A stretch of DNA of 64,000 bases. Source: Calothrix anomala FACHB-343. GTDB lineage: Bacteria; Cyanobacteriota; Cyanobacteriia; Cyanobacteriales; Nostocaceae. The stretch's first letter is position 1. Every line of letters begins with the position of its first letter. The notes beneath the pieces were generated by a model, which was not told the origin of the DNA, did no database searches, and saw only the letters and a list, made by a program, of their open reading frames with translations. Made by a program: the position numbers and the translations under genes. Shown one piece after another: positions 26,650 to 34,392 of this stretch. The stretch lies in assembly GCF_014696435.1 (NCBI RefSeq), contig NZ_JACJQG010000013.1:62001-126000 (forward strand), in the 5' to 3' direction.

Positions 26650-27657
26650 TCATTCATCGCCAATCAGCAGAACAATTTTACCTGTGATAGAACCACTTTC
26701 AAGTAATTGATGAGCTTTTGCTGCTTCTGCTAAAGGAAATTTGTGACTGACATGAATTTTTAGCTTACCTTCATCAATCCAAGTTGCGCATTGTTGGAGA
26801 ATTTCGGCGTGATGCTGCAATCCTTCCACCATTCCTTGTAACATCGGTGTTAACATCAGTTCCAAACCGATGCGGAGGTTACGCATTCTCGCTGCTTTCC
26901 ACACAGTATTGGCATCTGGTTCTAAGATTGTCACAATATCGCCATATACACGCACTGCGGGGAAGGTTTTGTGAAAGGTTTCGCCGCCAATAGTATCAAA
27001 GGCTAAGTCTACACCTTCGCCACCAGTCCAATCTAAAGCGGCTTGTACAAAGTCAGTTTGTTGATAAAATATTACTTCGTCAGCACCTAATTGTTTGACA
27101 AAGTTCGCTTTCTCTTGAGAACTGACAGTAGTGGCGACATTCGCACCTTTGAGTTTAGCTAATTGAATGGCGACATGGCCGACGCCACCAGCACCAGCGT
27201 GAATTAATACGTTTTCTTTGGGTTCTAAACGTCCCCTTTCATATAAAGCTTCCCAAGCGGTGATGAGTACTAAAGGTGCGGCTGCGGCTTCTGCAAAAGA
27301 TACGGAAGCAGGTTTATGTGCTACAAATAGCTCATCAACAATAGTATATTCCGCATAATTACCTTGATGTCCGCCTAAACCGCCATAGCAAAAATAGACT
27401 GCATCGCCTGGGCGAAAGCGCTGTACCCCAGCACCAACGGCTTCTACAACACCTGCACCATCACATCCGAGAATGGCGGGCATTTGTTCGGGGTAGAATG
27501 TACCGCGTTGACGCAGTTTTGTATCGATAGGATTTATACCAGCTGCTACCAAGCGTATTAAAAGTTCAGTATCTCCGACAGGAACAGCAGGGTTTGTCAC
27601 TTGTTGTATTTGCAGCACGTCAGGGCTTCCGGCTGCTGTCATTAAGACTGCTTTCAT
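26650..27657 (-). CDS. Zinc-binding-dehydrogenase-like quinone oxidoreductase (MDR superfamily)
   Basis: This 335-residue MDR protein has the N-terminal GroES-like part (GINPIDTKLRQRG, PAILGCDGAGVVEAVG) and a nucleotide-binding domain with HAGAGGVGHVAIQLAKLKGA. It lacks the cysteine/histidine set of catalytic-zinc alcohol dehydrogenases and looks like the NADPH:quinone reductase branch. The likely reaction is NADPH-dependent reduction of quinones or reactive carbonyls in the cytoplasm. The start ATG 27657 fits the family (MKAVLMTAAGSPDVLQ). The DNA immediately upstream is a structured repeat, so no normal ribosome binding site is visible. The next gene follows at once on the same strand. Confidence 0.88.
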   Translation of the reverse strand: MKAVLMTAAGSPDVLQIQQVTNPAVPVGDTELLIRLVAAGINPIDTKLRQRGTFYPEQMPAILGCDGAGVVEAVGAGVQRFRPGDAVYFCYGGLGGHQGNYAEYTIVDELFVAHKPASVSFAEAAAAPLVLITAWEALYERGRLEPKENVLIHAGAGGVGHVAIQLAKLKGANVATTVSSQEKANFVKQLGADEVIFYQQTDFVQAALDWTGGEGVDLAFDTIGGETFHKTFPAVRVYGDIVTILEPDANTVWKAARMRNLRIGLELMLTPMLQGMVEGLQHHAEILQQCATWIDEGKLKIHVSHKFPLAEAAKAHQLLESGSITGKIVLLIGDE

Positions 27658-27660
27658 CAG

Positions 27661-27960
27661 AAAAATGGGTAGAAACCCCGTCCTATAAGGACGGCTTTAC
27701 AAGCCCCTTACGGGGACTGGTTTTTAAATGGCGATAAGCCCAGGAAACCAGCAAAACCCGTTTAAGTCCCTTCCCGCAACACAGATAAGATGTCCTGTCT
27801 AACAGCACCTAACCAATTAGGCTTGCAGATAGTCCAGACTAGGGAAGTATCTGGAAGTGCGTACCAACCTGTGTCTCAATGCGGTATTCACCTCTTGCGT
27901 TGCCTAAATTGGTTTAGACAATCCTCACCCTTCAAGGGTGAGGTTGGTGAAGGCTGAAGC
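27661..27960 (-). mobile_element. Transposase-less structured element, possibly an IS200/IS605 end or omega-RNA-like remnant
   Basis: Read on the minus strand, it begins near the hairpin CCTCACCCTTGAAGGGTGAGG-like sequence (27924-27944) and ends with the hairpin CCGTCCTTATAGGACGG and GGTTTCTACCC, right before the ATG of the oxidoreductase. Such CGTCCTTATAGGACGGGG ends resemble the terminal hairpin after tnpB at about 56681-56697. There is no reading frame inside. The exact borders and the family are uncertain. Confidence 0.4.
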
Positions 27961-28032
27961 TAGATGCACAATCATTTGCCACTTTAGCTTATCAGCATGA
28001 AGGACGATCGCGCGTAAACACAAAGAGCGATC

Positions 28033-28188
28033 GCTTTAAGGACAATACGGTTCAGTTATGGATAAATGTAGGTTGGGTTGAACGAAGTGAAACCCAACAA
28101 AGCGCCGAAAATGTTGGGTTTCGTTCCTCAACCCAACCTACGCCAAATCAGTTTTTTGACGCTAACTGAACCGTATTGGCTTTAAGGA
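28033..28188. mobile_element. MITE-like element, copy 1 (136 bp) with perfect 10-bp target duplication
   Basis: The terminal inverted repeats CAATACGGTTCAGTTA (28043-28058) and TAACTGAACCGTATTG (28163-28178) are perfect over 16 bp. Inside are nested arms GTAGGTTGGGTTGA / TCAACCCAACCTAC and a AAACCCAACA / TGTTGGGTTT hairpin. Both sides carry GCTTTAAGGA (28033-28042 and 28179-28188). There is no coding capacity, so it would need a transposase in trans. The right duplication overlaps the stop codon of the 193-residue gene. Confidence 0.9.
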
Positions 28189-28763
28189 TGGATCTGTGAT
28201 TGAATTTGCTGTGTACTTTGCAATGGTGCATCTGGATTGCGGGTAAGTGCAGTGACTGTAACGCCTAACGCAGACAGCGCCACAATACAAAACCCAGCTA
28301 GCCATCTCACTTGCTGACGTAAATAGTTGATTTCTCGGTTCATGCGCTCTACTTCTAGCTGAGAATATGGGTTAGCTGGTGAAGTTTCTACAGCGATTTC
28401 TTGCGGTAAATTTGTGGGATCTTCAAAAGCAATTTTTGTTTCTAGCCAGTCAGTAATTAACTGCGGACAATTTTTTTGGAACCAATGCCATGCAATTACT
28501 CTGAATACAGGTTTAGACACTCTGGCAATTAATTTGATTGTCCGGTTTAAAGGACGAAAGCGCAACCTGCGGTTAATTAAGTTAACTGAGCCAATATCAT
28601 ATAAACAATCAATAATCAGCTTAATAGTTGCTTCTTCACTATTAGCTAAATTTTGTAATAAAAGGTTAACATCTTGCATTCTTTGAGCAGCAAGACGCTG
28701 ATGGGCTAAGTTCTCTGGAGATATAACAGTTTGAGGTAGATGATTGCTAGGAACTATGGTCAT
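28182..28763 (-). CDS. Conserved hypothetical protein with C-terminal membrane segment
   Basis: I do not recognise this 193-residue protein. The N-terminal 130 residues are predicted helical and soluble (QRMQDVNLLLQNLANSEEATI, then basic INRRLRFRPLNRTIKL). A short coiled-coil-like stretch follows (LEVERMNREINYLRQQVRW, about 135-153), then one membrane helix (FCIVALSALGVTVTAL, about 157-172) and a short polar tail. The layout is that of a tail-anchored cytoplasmic-facing protein. It is a single gene. A MITE-like element has inserted so close to its end that the target duplication covers the stop codon; the reading frame is preserved. Confidence 0.6.
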   Translation of the reverse strand: MTIVPSNHLPQTVISPENLAHQRLAAQRMQDVNLLLQNLANSEEATIKLIIDCLYDIGSVNLINRRLRFRPLNRTIKLIARVSKPVFRVIAWHWFQKNCPQLITDWLETKIAFEDPTNLPQEIAVETSPANPYSQLEVERMNREINYLRQQVRWLAGFCIVALSALGVTVTALTRNPDAPLQSTQQIQSQIHP

Positions 28764-29592
28764 ACTGGTATATGAAAATTCTCAAATCTTAAAGGTGAGT
28801 GTTTTAAAAGAGCAATTTTAACCGCAATAACTAAAAATATATAACTTAATTTCTGTTTTCTATATCTGTAATAAGATGTAATTTAATAAGTTTTTAAATT
28901 ATTTGGAATAAGATAAATTCATATATTGGGAAAACCTTTATTAGAGATTGATTTACAGCTTAATTTTATTTATAACAATCAAAACTAACAACAACAAATT
29001 TCATCAATGGCAATTAATTACTTTATATATAAGTTTCAAGCAATGTAAACAGTTATATGAACAACTGTACTCCTATCACTGATAAATATTCAAGATGCGG
29101 CAGAAAAGATATATCTAACGGTAAGAAAATCTGGTATTGATGACAGGCTAATACTTTGGATAGAAAGAGTTTTAATCCTATGGTAGACGTTTATCAAAAA
29201 AGCAAAAGTTATTCTTAGTCAAAGTTACCTCGACGTATAGCAAACCGTCGTGGGGGTTTTTACGAGGGTAAAGAATTACTGTATCTATCTGTATCTATAA
29301 AGCTGATGCAATCAGCATTCGCCAAGCTCATACTCAAAACACAAATTTTTCAGAAGATGAAGATAATTATGAATCTAGCGAGAATCTTCATGTTGTTTAA
29401 ATATGCCTGAAAACTGCTGAGGCTTTTTCTTAATCCCATATATTTCCATGTTTTTCGACTTTTGCCACAATCGGGCAAGGTATTAATGTGTGGTGCTTAC
29501 CAAGACTGAGTTTAGTAACAGATTGAGTCGTTAACGGCGTTGTTGGCAATCTATTAACCACAAAAATCTAGAGCCTATAAGGAAAAATAATC
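28764..29592. other. Intergenic region (829 bp) upstream of the WGxxGxxG gene
   Basis: Mostly AT-rich and stop-rich. A stretch at about 29271-29400 looks like the eroded end of a gene (listed separately). AAGGAAAAATAATC just before ATG 29593 is the probable ribosome binding region of the next gene. I see no tRNA or clear promoter. Confidence 0.5.
29271..29400 (+). pseudogene. Possible remnant of a small DUF4242-like gene
   Basis: A frame without a start codon reads CIYKADAISIRQAHTQ, then an acidic tail, and stops at TAA 29398-29400. The pattern resembles the CLYEAPDAEAVR-x-AH core of DUF4242 (nickel-binding-like) proteins. The frame is closed by TAA 5' of this stretch, and a tandem 10-bp duplication (CTGTATCTAT twice, about 29280-29299) sits at the point where the frame is lost. 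The match is short, so this is tentative. Confidence 0.3.
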
Positions 29593-30480
29593 ATGAGGCC
29601 TTTGAATTTATCCAAATTTGTTTTGGCTGGTATCTTTGCTCTCAGTTTTGTTGCTGTACCCTTATCTATATCAGTTTCTGCTCAATCCGGTTCTTCTGGT
29701 GGTAGTGGTTCCTCTGGTGGCAGTACTGGTGGTACAGGCACTACGGGTACTAGTGGTACAGGCACTACTGGCACAGGCACTACTGGCACTGGTACAACTG
29801 GCACTGGTACTAGTGGCACAGGAACTACAGGTACAGGCACTACAGGCACTGGTGGTAGTGGTACAACAGGTACAGGCACTACAGGTACAGGCACTACTGG
29901 CACTGGTACAACTGGTACTGGTACTACAGGTACTGGTAGTAGTGGTACAACAGGTACAGGCACTACAGGTACAGGTACTACAGATTTCGGCGGAACTGGT
30001 ACTACAGGTACAGGCAGTGGCGGTACAACTGGTACGGGCACTAGTGGCACAGGTTCTACAGGTATTGGCGGTAGTGGTAGCACAGGTACAGGTTCTACAG
30101 GTACTGGTGGTACTACGGGTACAGGTTCTACAGGTACAGGTACTACAGATTTTGGTGGTACAGGCACAGGTACTACAGGTACAGGTACTACAGATTTTGG
30201 TGGTACAGGCACAGGTACTAGTGGTACAGGCACTACAGGTACTGACTCGACAGGTACGGGTACTAGTGGTACAGGCACTACAGGTACTGACTCGACAGGT
30301 ACGACTACAGGTAACCCTTCGTTGCGAGGAACCAGTGATGTCAGAAGCGATCGCGGTAATGATTGGGGTTGGTTAGGATTGCTAGGTTTGGCAGGTTTAG
30401 CGGGTTTAGCGCGTAATCGCAAAACTCCTCGCGCTTATCAAGATCCTAATCAAGTCACGGGTTCAGGCACAAGATATTAA
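29593..30480 (+). CDS. Low-complexity Gly/Thr-rich WGxxGxxG-type secreted protein
   Basis: This 295-residue protein begins with a signal peptide (residues 1-31, ending SVSAQ). About 200 residues follow that are almost only Gly, Thr and Ser in GTGTT repeats with scattered DFGG. The end is WGWLGLLGLAGLAGLARNR, which fits the WGxxGxxG C-terminal motif: a short hydrophobic helix after a charged spacer, followed by basic residues. This layout suggests a surface protein anchored by its C-terminus, by analogy with PEP-CTERM-type sorting. Because the DNA is a repeat of multiples of three bases, two other frames are also open (29618-30376 plus; 29682-30422 minus). The signal peptide and C-terminal motif identify this frame as the real one. 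Confidence 0.8.
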   Translation: MRPLNLSKFVLAGIFALSFVAVPLSISVSAQSGSSGGSGSSGGSTGGTGTTGTSGTGTTGTGTTGTGTTGTGTSGTGTTGTGTTGTGGSGTTGTGTTGTGTTGTGTTGTGTTGTGSSGTTGTGTTGTGTTDFGGTGTTGTGSGGTTGTGTSGTGSTGIGGSGSTGTGSTGTGGTTGTGSTGTGTTDFGGTGTGTTGTGTTDFGGTGTGTSGTGTTGTDSTGTGTSGTGTTGTDSTGTTTGNPSLRGTSDVRSDRGNDWGWLGLLGLAGLAGLARNRKTPRAYQDPNQVTGSGTRY

Positions 30481-30482
30481 GT

Positions 30483-30531
30483 GTCATTAGTCATTAGTCA
30501 TTAGTCATTAGTCATTTGTCATTTGTCATTG
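30483..30531. repeat. Tandem heptamer repeat (ATTAGTC / ATTTGTC)
   Basis: Seven 7-bp units immediately downstream of the WGxxGxxG gene: ATTAGTC four times, then ATTTGTC-type variants. Confidence 0.9.
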
Positions 30532-30554
30532 GTAATTCGTAAGGGGTTCAAGCC

Positions 30555-30731
30555 TATTTACGGGGAGCATCCCAATTTTGACGCAATACCCTAGAAGGGT
30601 ATTGCTATACCAACAAAGCCTGCCTTCGCAGGCTATCAAACTTTTAGCCTGCGAAGGCAGGCTTCGTATTTCTAGCCCCACCCTTATAGGGTGAGGGCGT
30701 TTTTGCACATTTGGGATGCTCCCTATTTACG
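30555..30731. mobile_element. 161-bp inverted-repeat element with perfect 8-bp target duplication
   Basis: GGGAGCATCCCAA (30563-30575) faces TTGGGATGCTCCC (30711-30723), a perfect 13-bp terminal repeat. TATTTACG flanks both ends (30555-30562 and 30724-30731). Inside are three short hairpins: AATACCC/GGGTATT, GCCTGC/GCAGGC (twice) and CACCC/GGGTG. There is no reading frame of note. It is a non-autonomous mobile element. Confidence 0.88.
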
Positions 30732-30847
30732 TAAAGTACATAGTTTGGTGCAATTACCGATTTACCTATCAAAATTAATCCCACGCCTTACCTGCAAGGT
30801 AAACGTGGGATTAATTGATGATGCAGCTAAAGAATTAGGCTTTTTGA

Positions 30848-32212
30848 TTAAGTTTCAGTTTCAAAAAGCGAAATATCAGCTATATTAGGACACCAATTTT
30901 CAGGTATTGTTAGGTTTTCTGGTAAAAGAGTAGTGCGATCGCCAAAAGCTAACTCTAGCTGTTGTGATTCTAAATTTTCACATCTTGTCATATCTGCGCC
31001 AAAAACTCTCGCTTTCTGGAGAATAGCCTGATTTAAGTTCGTACCAGTGAGGATTGTTTGCTCTAGATTGGCTTCATAGAAATTGGCTTGTTCTAAGTTA
31101 GCCTCATAGAGGTTAGCTTGTTGTAGATTAGCTGTACTGAACAATACACCTTCTAAATTGGCACCAATCATTTTTGCGCCTTGCAAGTTACTCCCAATCA
31201 AATTTGCGCCAAAAAGGTTACTTCCTTCTAAATTTGCTCCTTCTAGGTTAGTATCGCAAAGAATAGCTGCTTCTAAATTAGCATTTTCAAGTATCGCATC
31301 TTGCAAGTCAGCATCATACAACATTGCGCCTTGCAAATCCGCTTCGCACATTACAGCCTTAGATAAATTCACTTTTCGCAAAACTGCTTCTTGTAAATTT
31401 GCTTCTGTGAGTGTTGCTTTTCTCAAGTTAGCTTCGTAAAGAACTGCTCCACAAAGATTGGCGTCTGCTAAGTTGGCGCTTGATAGATTGGCTCCAATCA
31501 AATTTACCCATTGTAAATTGGCTCCAATTAATATGGCTCCACCTAAGTTAGCGTCCATTAAATCAGCGCCACTGATATCAATATCGCGTAAATCTAATTT
31601 ATGATTTGCCAAATCGTTTAATGTATTGCGTCTGCCAATGACAGTCAAGGCTGTTTGAATATCTGTAGGGATTTTTTTCGCTAAATTTTCTTCAATATCA
31701 GCATTTATCGGGGAATTTTCGCGGATAAAAGCAGCGAGGATTTCCATAATTGTCCAATGATATTTTGGACAATCTCTGGCAATTCTTTCTAAAACATAAA
31801 TTGCAGCAAAACGTGTTTCTATTTGACTGCTACCTAAATGTGCGATCGCTTCTGAAAATCGTTTGGCAATTAATTCTTCTGGATTTACTGGTGGAGAAAT
31901 TACCTGGCTGTTGATGATTTGCTTACGCTCCATAATTTCGGAAAAGGTTTTTGATAATACAGTCTGACCGATTGCTAAAGAAAGTTTTGAGGTATAGTAC
32001 GTATGAATGCTAAGTACTATGCCCCAAGCCACCAGAGAAATTAAAGTGATTATTTGCAGAAATATGGCAATTTCTTGAGTGATGGAAAATGCCGGAAAAA
32101 TCGCCAAAGCGCTAATAATTAAAGATATGCCCAGAAATAATATAGCAGGAGTATATATATACCAAGTATTAAGTCTATCTATATTGAATAAAGACGTATC
32201 AGGAGTCTTCAT
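30848..32212 (-). CDS. Membrane-anchored pentapeptide-repeat protein (first of three)
   Basis: This 454-residue protein has two membrane helices (about 17-40 and 45-68), then a helical module with YVLERIARDCPKYHWTIMEI and AAFIRENSP, and the linker TDIQTALTVIGRRN. About 200 residues of A(D/N)Lxx pentapeptides follow (about 215-420), which fold as a right-handed quadrilateral beta-helix. The same module order occurs in the genes at 32923 and 34561. The repeat domain should lie in the cytoplasm. Pentapeptide proteins are abundant in cyanobacteria and mostly of unknown function. The gene is preceded by 710 bases with a MITE-like insertion. Confidence 0.85.
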   Translation of the reverse strand: MKTPDTSLFNIDRLNTWYIYTPAILFLGISLIISALAIFPAFSITQEIAIFLQIITLISLVAWGIVLSIHTYYTSKLSLAIGQTVLSKTFSEIMERKQIINSQVISPPVNPEELIAKRFSEAIAHLGSSQIETRFAAIYVLERIARDCPKYHWTIMEILAAFIRENSPINADIEENLAKKIPTDIQTALTVIGRRNTLNDLANHKLDLRDIDISGADLMDANLGGAILIGANLQWVNLIGANLSSANLADANLCGAVLYEANLRKATLTEANLQEAVLRKVNLSKAVMCEADLQGAMLYDADLQDAILENANLEAAILCDTNLEGANLEGSNLFGANLIGSNLQGAKMIGANLEGVLFSTANLQQANLYEANLEQANFYEANLEQTILTGTNLNQAILQKARVFGADMTRCENLESQQLELAFGDRTTLLPENLTIPENWCPNIADISLFETET

Positions 32213-32922
32213 TGCTGAATTTTTATGTAATTTGGCTTATCCATACTATTATTTGTTGATCCCTTTTAGTACAGTAAATACACTGACTTAATTAATCAAT
32301 AAATTTGTTCGCCTAAAAATCTCTATGGATTTACTTAGCACCATAATAATTACTGTAATTAGGCGCAATCAAAAACCCTACAAATTTTCAGAAGCTATTA
32401 TTGAGGGTTTGCCGATTCAGATTATTCATAAATCAATACGGTTCAGTTAAGAATAATTGTAGTAGCGTGACAAGGTTAAAAAGTTGGGTTCAAACAATCT
32501 AGAAAATCTACCAATAATAAATATAGTCTCTGATTATTCAACCCAACAAATTAAGCTTGCCGCGCTAGTAGGTTGGGTAGAGCGATAGCGAAACCCAACA
32601 TTAAAGGGGCTTTGTTGGGTTTCGTTCCTCAACCCAACCTACATCTTTTCAGGTTTTTGATGCTAACTGAACCGTATTGATTCATAAATACCATATATGG
32701 GATAAAATTTGCATATCCTCTGTAGACTTAGTTGTGCGATCGCATTCATGAAATCTGTAAATTTAGCTCGTCATCAGGTCTACAGTTATGAATTATGCAA
32801 CAATAAACTGCGAATTACAAAATCAGCATAAATTTTGCGATGCAGCAACAAGTGCGATCGCTAAAATAGCCAATAACAGCAAAAATATGCCAAAAACTTG
32901 GCATAAATTATTTATTTTGACT
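32213..32922. other. Intergenic region (710 bp) with a MITE-like insertion
   Basis: Apart from the element at 32424-32689, no gene or terminator is visible. It separates two related pentapeptide genes on the same strand. Confidence 0.6.
32424..32689. mobile_element. MITE-like element, copy 2 (246 bp) with perfect 10-bp target duplication
   Basis: The terminal repeats CAATACGGTTCAGTTA (32434-32449) and TAACTGAACCGTATTG (32664-32679) are identical to copy 1. ATTCATAAAT flanks both sides (32424-32433 and 32680-32689). The right half carries the same GTAGGTTGGG / AAACCCAACA / TGTTGGGTTT core as copy 1. About 110 additional bases, including a second GTTGGGTT/AACCCAAC pair, lie in the left half. 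There is no coding capacity. Confidence 0.9.
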
Positions 32923-34392
32923 TTAACTAGATTGCCGCCAATGTGTAGGCGCTTCTACATCATCCGGTAGGCGAGTTGTGCGATCGCCTAAAGCTGTTGT
33001 AATTTGTTGTAATTCTAAATTCTTCACCCCTGTCAAAATCGCTCCGGCTAATTTGACATCACAAAAGTTTGTCTCGAAGAGGTTAGCACCCATCAAATTT
33101 GCGCCGTGGAGATTAGCTTCATAGAGAACGGCTTGAGAAAGGTTAGCGCCTATCAGGTTGGCTTGATGTAAGTCAGCCTCAGCCAAGCTAGCTTCGGAAA
33201 GGTTAGCAAAGTAAATTTCTGTTTGTTGCAGTTTTGCTGCATTTAAGTTAGCGCCTTGAAGATTGGCTCCATTTAAGTTAGCGCCTTGGAGGTTTGCGCC
33301 AATTAACCCTGTTAGCTGTAAGTTAGCTTTACCCAACTTTGCACCTTGCAAGTTAGCTAGAAATAACTTGGCGGCGGAGAGATTGGCAACTTTTAAGGTA
33401 GCTTGTTGTAAATTCGCTTTATACAGGTTGGCTCCTTGCAAGTTAGCTGCACGCAGACTTGCGCTTGTGAGGTTAGCACCCCGCAGGTTAGCACTAGACA
33501 AATTAGCGCGATTTAAGTTAGCCCAAGCCAGATTTGCTCCCCGTAAATTAGCTTTAAGTAAATTAGCTTCATACAAAATTGCGCCAAAAAGTTTAGCTCC
33601 AGCCATATCCGCACCAACTAAAACCGCACCGCGCAAATCTGCACCAGATAAGTCACACCCCCGTAAATCAAAATTTTCTAAGTTAGCTCCTTGTAAGTCG
33701 GCTTGTCTAATATCTGTATTGCGTAAGTTGATTTTTTGGTTTTCTCTATCTTCCAAATAATTACGCCTACCAATGACTGTCAAGGCTACTTGAATATCGG
33801 TGCGGATTTTGGGTAATTCGTATGGGGTATTTACTTCAATTTGTGGTGTGCGATGATTGTCTTTTTTGTACTTATCAAAATCTAGAGGTGCAACGTTTTC
33901 CTCACGCATGAGTTCGTGGTGATGGATAGGTGCATTTTCGCGCACAAAAGCAGTGAGAATTTCTATAATTGTCCAATGTTCTCTAGGAAATTCCTGGGCG
34001 ACTCTTTCCAGAGCATAAATTGCTCCTGTACGGGTTTCACTTTTCTCATGCCCTAGCTGGGCAATAGCTGTCATAAAGCGTTCGGCTGTTAACCGCTCTT
34101 GGGAGAGTTTAGCATTTTGAATTGCTAGTTCGATGTTTTTTTCAGCCGCGATCGCACTTTTTTCTAAAGCTTGGGCACGCTTGGCTCCATAATATGCATT
34201 CACCAACAATGCCAAGCCTAAAAAAATCATTGCTAAGGTTCCTAAGGCTTGAATTCCATATTGTATTTGTTGTGGAATTGATAATTGCCGAATATTTGAC
34301 AATGTAAAGAAAATCACAGTCAATAACAGCACAAATATCACTGCGATCGCTATCAACCAATTTAACAGTAAGCCTGTCTTGTTAGCAGACAT
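32923..34392 (-). CDS. Membrane-anchored pentapeptide-repeat protein (second of three)
   Basis: This 489-residue paralogue of the 454-residue protein has two N-terminal membrane helices (about 10-30 and 45-68) and a charged coiled-coil-like stretch. The shared module follows (AIYALERVAQEFPREHWTIIE, ILTAFVRENAP, TDIQVALTVIGRRNYLEDR), then more than 40 pentapeptides, A(D/N)LxG being the commonest (about 225-470). It differs from copy one by an insert of about 30 residues (HHHELMREENVAPLD onward) between the helical module and the linker. It is transcribed in the same direction as the flanking pentapeptide genes, but gaps of 170-700 bases argue for separate promoters. Confidence 0.85.
   Translation of the reverse strand: MSANKTGLLLNWLIAIAVIFVLLLTVIFFTLSNIRQLSIPQQIQYGIQALGTLAMIFLGLALLVNAYYGAKRAQALEKSAIAAEKNIELAIQNAKLSQERLTAERFMTAIAQLGHEKSETRTGAIYALERVAQEFPREHWTIIEILTAFVRENAPIHHHELMREENVAPLDFDKYKKDNHRTPQIEVNTPYELPKIRTDIQVALTVIGRRNYLEDRENQKINLRNTDIRQADLQGANLENFDLRGCDLSGADLRGAVLVGADMAGAKLFGAILYEANLLKANLRGANLAWANLNRANLSSANLRGANLTSASLRAANLQGANLYKANLQQATLKVANLSAAKLFLANLQGAKLGKANLQLTGLIGANLQGANLNGANLQGANLNAAKLQQTEIYFANLSEASLAEADLHQANLIGANLSQAVLYEANLHGANLMGANLFETNFCDVKLAGAILTGVKNLELQQITTALGDRTTRLPDDVEAPTHWRQSS

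Follow-up and report, generated by a model that had tools for sequence, protein, structure and literature searches.

What kind of element is the short inverted repeat found at positions 28033 to 28188 of the window (i.e., of the whole stretch of 64,000 nucleotides that was analysed), how would it have come to be there, and might it be moving still? The answer argued for here is that it is a real, mobile MITE of IS4 type with a REPIN as its core, that is, an element of an ordinary kind and of unusual build. Very probably, its ends are moved in trans; REPIN and ends probably were joined long ago, with the resulting composite now probably stranded in its host strain.

The element and its insertion site

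Direct reading of the sequence gives an element of 136 bp, 28043 to 28178, with perfect 16-bp inverted ends. The left terminal inverted repeat, CAATACGGTTCAGTTA, occupies 28043 to 28058 on the plus strand and has the same letters as the ends of IS4-family elements of approximately 1.5 kb, while the right one, its reverse complement, occupies 28163 to 28178 on the minus strand. Exactly abutting these ends, at 28033 to 28042 and 28179 to 28188, are two identical 10-bp direct repeats, GCTTTAAGGA, the left of which was established both by direct reading and by the tally of duplications given below. An earlier note on this DNA had claimed perfect ends as well as a perfect abutting duplication, and both claims are confirmed. 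The nested arms which that note described likewise are present, but were described too short. That is, they are full REPs, GTAGGTTGGGTT...AACCCAAC, which extend beyond GTTGGGTT. The first GTAG-tagged REP, GTAGGTTGGGTTGAACGAAGTGAAACCCAAC, lies at 28068 to 28098 on the plus strand, and the second, GTAGGTTGGGTTGAGGAACGAAACCCAAC as read on the minus strand, lies inverted at 28113 to 28141 and pairs with the first. Two such REPs, inverted with respect to one another, make of the core a REPIN, which is something that the earlier note had overlooked.

Folded as RNA, the element forms a single long hairpin (−65.8 kcal/mol, z = −10.2). It holds no open reading frame of 80 or more amino acids and thus, as with MITEs generally, is short, non-coding and bounded by inverted ends. 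An Rfam scan of 27500 to 33000 returned zero matches at gathering scores. Within the window the end sequence is matched, at up to two mismatches, four times, versus a shuffle expectation of 0.08, with all four matches having 0 mismatches and being both ends of each of two copies. The second copy, of 246 bp, is found at 32434 to 32679, has the same 16-bp ends, and is flanked by 10-bp duplications at 32424 to 32433 (ATTCATAAAT) and 32680 to 32689. It carries a REP whose head is one letter off (32568 to 32599, plus strand) along with an inverted REP (32614 to 32642, minus strand).

Copy 2 is flanked by two long repeat proteins of A(D/N)LxxAxL type, pentapeptide-like by eye, at 30848 to 32212 and 32923 to 34392, and at 29593 to 30480 there is a Gly-Thr-Ser low-complexity repeat protein of 295 amino acids, the opposite strand of which also has long open frames. 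Adjoining the first copy, at 27654 to 27951, is a different repeat of approximately 298 bp, with copies that are 96 to 100% identical on contigs C61, C46 and C115. This repeat is absent from the corresponding site in the nearest relative (G001), and therefore is either a recent insertion or one that was lost in that relative.

The first copy sits at the 3' end of a 193-codon open reading frame (28182 to 28763, minus strand), which received the insertion without loss. The right duplication covers, as had been claimed, the gene's end, i.e., the TAA stop (28182 to 28184), the last codon (CCT) and a single additional base. In two relatives that lack the element (G006 and G007) the gene terminates, by eye, in His-Pro-stop at the same position, and the insertion at the very end of this gene therefore left it intact, also as the earlier note had it. 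The strong hairpin which the element adds here, three bases beyond the stop codon, possibly affects mRNA ends or stability. G001 carries the same insertion and duplication at 28033 to 28188, at 95% identity, which makes this insertion older than the split between G001 and the host. Seven other relatives (G002 to G008) lack it, with spacers there that do not align. The comparison with empty sites in related strains that the earlier note had proposed thus gives no clean outcome at this exact position: seven relatives are without the insertion, but G001 is filled, and the unalignable spacers of the others provide no clean empty site.

Copies, duplications and the probable IS4-type partner

The genome-wide search for the 16-bp ends which the earlier note had recommended finds 48 exact ones (29 forward and 19 reverse) versus 0 for a reversed-pattern control. 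DNA matches to the element in the host genome number at least 75, as based on scoring 40 of 232 first-look candidates. Complete copies were taken, from among loci L001 to L080 plus the window, as those in which each end has at most three mismatches and both together at most four, over a length of 80 to 450 bp. There are 32 distinct ones, spanning 119 to 308 bp and consequently too short to encode a transposase of their own. The 10-bp duplication matches at all ten positions in 20 copies, at nine in 7, at eight in 1, at six in 2 and at three in 2, such that 27 of the 32 match at nine or more positions and five at eight or fewer. Copies lacking such duplications were what the earlier note would have counted against the element. 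The mean match is 0.90 at a length of 10, versus 0.23 to 0.36 at lengths of 5 to 9 and 11 to 15, and as only the length of 10 gives a high match the stagger is taken to be 10 bp. The target consensus of the 20 perfect duplications is NNTTATAANN.

The composite is not peculiar to this genome. A scan of genome contigs finds it in filamentous cyanobacteria in at least 111 stretches, with Nostoc, Scytonema, Brasilonema, Tolypothrix, Calothrix, Cylindrospermum and Mastigocoleus, presumably all of them Nostocales, among the matches listed. A. variabilis is absent among the 80 matches listed, an absence which carries little weight. These named stretches, selected because each has an end plus a REP, yielded 86 composites, with duplications matching at ten positions in 56, at nine in 14 (i.e., 70 of 86 at nine or more), and at eight or fewer in 16. 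Plasmid records matching the element number 33, with 32 of the matches covering less than 80% of its length, and no match for phage carriage of the element was found. Among very distant hosts, 25 Moraxella plasmid records (Moraxella bovis plasmids) match the REPIN core at approximately 79 to 81%.

Empty sites, too, point to movement. The flanks of 27 copies were joined, with 21 of these joined flanks then sent to G001, in a search that gave scores to the best 40 of 637 first-look candidates. Four of the 21 display a clean empty site there, that is, contiguous and with a single copy of the target: L011 (139/140 identical), L009, which is the window's copy 2 (127/138), L033 (126/140), and L017 (125/140, one base being gapped). 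Among the candidates scored, no clean empty site was found for the other 17, though with 40 of 637 scored these misses say little. Partial matches across the junction were seen with L005, L039 and L027, while L007 is filled. L026 gives two pieces with 238 bp between them, next to one of which lies an exact end, and L028 two pieces with 179 bp between them, both sites thus probably being filled in G001; L002 gives two pieces 1.5 kb apart. The ten remaining joined flanks gave either no match or a match to only one side or to a repeat. As separate observations, the duplication at L005 (G000 C24:109888-110023), TGTTATGAAT, spans an apparent start codon, such that this insertion may separate a gene from what lies upstream of it, and L002, L027, L028 and L044 hold, by eye, additional GC-rich palindromic inserts within their REP arms, making of them nested mosaics of 181 to 308 bp.

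Copies of 119 to 308 bp, near-perfect duplications about 27 of 32 of them, and four precise empty sites in G001 together support the earlier note's suggestion of movement via a transposase supplied in trans. Its further suggestion, of an enzyme of IS4 type, is upheld by elements found elsewhere in the family. The way in is a locus in G008 (L104) at which one exact end accompanies a decayed transposase tail bearing the pattern Y..RW.VE...DE.K, which I take to be the IS4 signature. Within the family, 96 of 193 genomes have a match to a 97-residue fragment of this tail. Among 30 transposase loci that were read, 16 are framed on both sides by exact 16-bp ends, 1485 to 1541 bp apart, and a further three have exact ends 858 to 1032 bp apart. 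Ten of the 16 elements possess perfect 10-bp duplications (3 to 8 of 10 positions matching in the other six), these having, by eye, a TATA-like centre similar to that of the MITE's targets, and 11 of the 16 have an open reading frame of 381 to 423 codons. Three transposases were scanned, two from elements with exact ends (L134 and L124) and one from an element with ends differing at one position (L151). All three exceed the cut-off of NCBIfam NF033592, 'IS4 family transposase', and match both PF13006 (Nterm_IS4) and PF01609 (DDE_Tnp_1), with L134 doing so at 7.4e-60 to NF033592 and 1.1e-23 to PF13006. An IS4-family DDE transposase, made elsewhere, thus would be what cuts and pastes the 16-bp ends. 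Insertion would join these ends to TTATAA-like sites, with 10 bp duplicated in the process.

Whether the host still makes such an enzyme is a different matter. The earlier note had called for a full-length, transposase-encoding relative, but the host assembly, a draft of 144 contigs, yielded no intact transposase gene framed by these ends. A full-length transposase compared with the host matches only a 64-residue stretch, i.e., 184 bp of DNA at 85%, on contig C70, plus the two IS4-type genes L108 and L109. Since this relic is all that was found there of the IS4-type transposase gene, the composite probably is stranded in this strain. Other loci considered as partners were rejected: around six host loci with PF01609 matches there are scattered end matches with 4 to 5 mismatches, none of which frames the transposase, and inspection about the IS4-type host loci L108 and L109 revealed no inverted repeat resembling these ends. 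In the genus, the ends of the intact relative read from G001 depart from these at 3 of 16 positions, while the one relative read from G003 has a single end, with two mismatches, and no second end within four. Partner elements with exact ends have been seen only in other genera. As for sequence just interior to the ends, MITE and insertion sequence compare such that, on the right, 21 of 300 shuffles do as well, and on the left the likeness is no better than chance. For a descent of the MITE from the insertion sequence through internal deletion this is a weak signal.

The REPIN core and rival explanations

The REP pattern, GTAGGTTGGGTT N(2-22) AACCCAAC, occurs exactly 231 times in the host genome, versus 0 for the control, and two REP heads are present in 29 of the 32 complete copies, one head in 1, and none in 2. 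Y1_Tnp matches in the host number nine, three of which were scanned with NCBIfam. One of these, L119 (G000 C79:94422-94784), is a RAYT (NF047646, 2.2e-62), the locus of which holds six GTAGGTTGGGTT heads, to either side of the RAYT gene. Another, L118, barely passes NF047646 (81.9 bits, with a cut-off of 80), and no such REP was found at its locus. Between the MITE core and the REP pair next to L119, 67 of 93 aligned columns agree, with gaps counted. The REPIN thus is associated with a RAYT-type HUH transposase that the genome itself encodes, and by which it presumably would be acted upon.

How ends and core came together is suggested by their spacing. In the named loci, and in a scan that admitted only 5 to 30 bp between end and REP, this spacing is 8 to 9 bp in 85 of 139 junctions and 20 to 21 bp in 46 of 139. 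As it clusters at two values across genera, IS4-type ends and REPIN probably came together in the distant past, on one or a few occasions, and the composite since then would have spread as one unit through its IS4-type ends. Where both arms could be classed, their order is the usual one in 31 cases and reverse in 5 (1 of 32 own copies, 1 of 14 in the genus, and 3 of 89 in named loci, with many arms unclassed). Given so few reversals, core flip-flop as a regular switch was rejected. Elements in which the core runs opposite to the outer ends include L003 (G000 C7:17256-17391) and L084.

More tentatively, there may be in filamentous cyanobacteria a stable, doubly mobile class of elements, i.e., REPINs that HUH (RAYT) enzymes serve and that reside within DDE (IS4-type) ends, such that two unrelated enzymes could copy a single small DNA. 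The REPIN then would ride to new sites by way of IS4-type transposition and perhaps re-seed REPINs from there.

A rival proposal is that the element is purely a REPIN or BIME, moved by the RAYT, with the 16-bp ends being passive flanks or else the mark of a preferred target. The core indeed is a standard REP dimer, and REPINs appear to be spreading by themselves as well: of the 100 REP places listed, out of 231, 68 are more than 320 bp both from every exact end and from each of the 42 element matches entered, with 32 lying within that distance of one or the other. The 10-bp duplications adjoin the outer ends, however, rather than the REPs, the empty sites are without ends and core together, and the same ends enclose, besides a DDE transposase gene, different cores within the genus (L086, L094, L103, L093 and L020, by eye). 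No duplications are known from HUH enzymes of the IS200/IS605 type. Movement by the RAYT alone therefore is very improbable indeed.

Somewhat less improbable, but still unlikely, is that transposition is long over and that copies have been kept and spread for a hairpin that serves the host, whether as a stabiliser of mRNA 3' ends or as a terminator near stop codons. The window's first copy, a very stable hairpin, lies just three bases beyond a stop codon; 2061 of 2491 pair positions are kept in 47 distinct 136-bp composites; and an intact partner was not found in the host genome. Stem conservation is nonetheless to be expected of any inverted-repeat transposon, and that most duplications still are readable, with some G001 sites empty, argues for mobility. 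Of greater standing is the idea that this is an already described MITE, Nezha, or a local version of it. Nezha reportedly was described in cyanobacteria by Zhou, Tran and Xu in 2008, and its hosts are said to be Anabaena variabilis and Nostoc PCC 7120. As with the present element, it is a cyanobacterial MITE with a proposed insertion-sequence partner, there ISNpu3-like elements (PMC3049150). Possibly the two are the same, which would be compatible with the preferred reading, i.e., an IS4-type MITE with a REPIN core, and would only make it less new.

Comparison with known systems

No new principle is involved, since MITEs of IS elements and REPINs both are well described. What is gained, rather, is the naming of a likely enzyme family and a target rule for a repeat that is scattered across many cyanobacterial genomes, along with a natural system in which to consider how one substrate can serve two unrelated transposition systems, and how a MITE lasts once its source of transposase is gone. 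In the open-licence literature searched, no description was found of the end sequence, of the REP arm sequence, or of the composite, nor of REP dimers being linked to ends of IS4 type, to a duplication of 10 bp and to a cognate RAYT.

In outline the composite nevertheless has precedent. GTAG-15 REP dimers within long palindromes have been reported from A. variabilis, a related cyanobacterium, where the dimers are set, as here, between inverted repeats of greater length (Di Nocera et al. 2013; PMC3733652). The enclosing consensus given there begins TATAGGA, unlike CAATACGGTTCAGTTA, and the passage on these dimers names neither a transposase nor a duplication. REPINs along with their RAYT transposases were described, with Nostoc punctiforme included, by Bertels and Rainey in 2011 (PMC3116915), and the likeness to their account is in the two inverted REPs forming a hairpin and in the presence, in the same genome, of a RAYT gene that has this REP to either side. 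The present element differs from those REPINs in that the REPIN here resides inside of DDE-transposon ends with target duplications. Anabaena sp. 90, also of the Nostocales, possesses 147 complete or partial MITEs, of which one sample group is described as having three sets of inverted repeats. They are reported as type II MITEs with no evident match to that genome's IS ends (PMC3542288).

The ends of the present element also bear comparison with the IS4 subgroup of the IS4 family. The partner elements are compared with that group, with mostly 10-bp duplications and with transposases having Nterm_IS4 and DDE_Tnp_1 domains, while the MITE, unlike members of the IS4 family, is without a transposase gene. 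The flanking repeat of E. coli IS4 in MG1655 is 12 bp, versus the 10 bp seen here. The left end of E. coli IS4 and that of the window copy are alike at 16 of 22 positions, and with the commoner form of the left end, CAATACGGTTCAGTTAAGGATAA (ending AAGGATAA), the likeness to E. coli IS4, TAATGCCGATCAGTTAAGGATCA, rises to 18 of 23.
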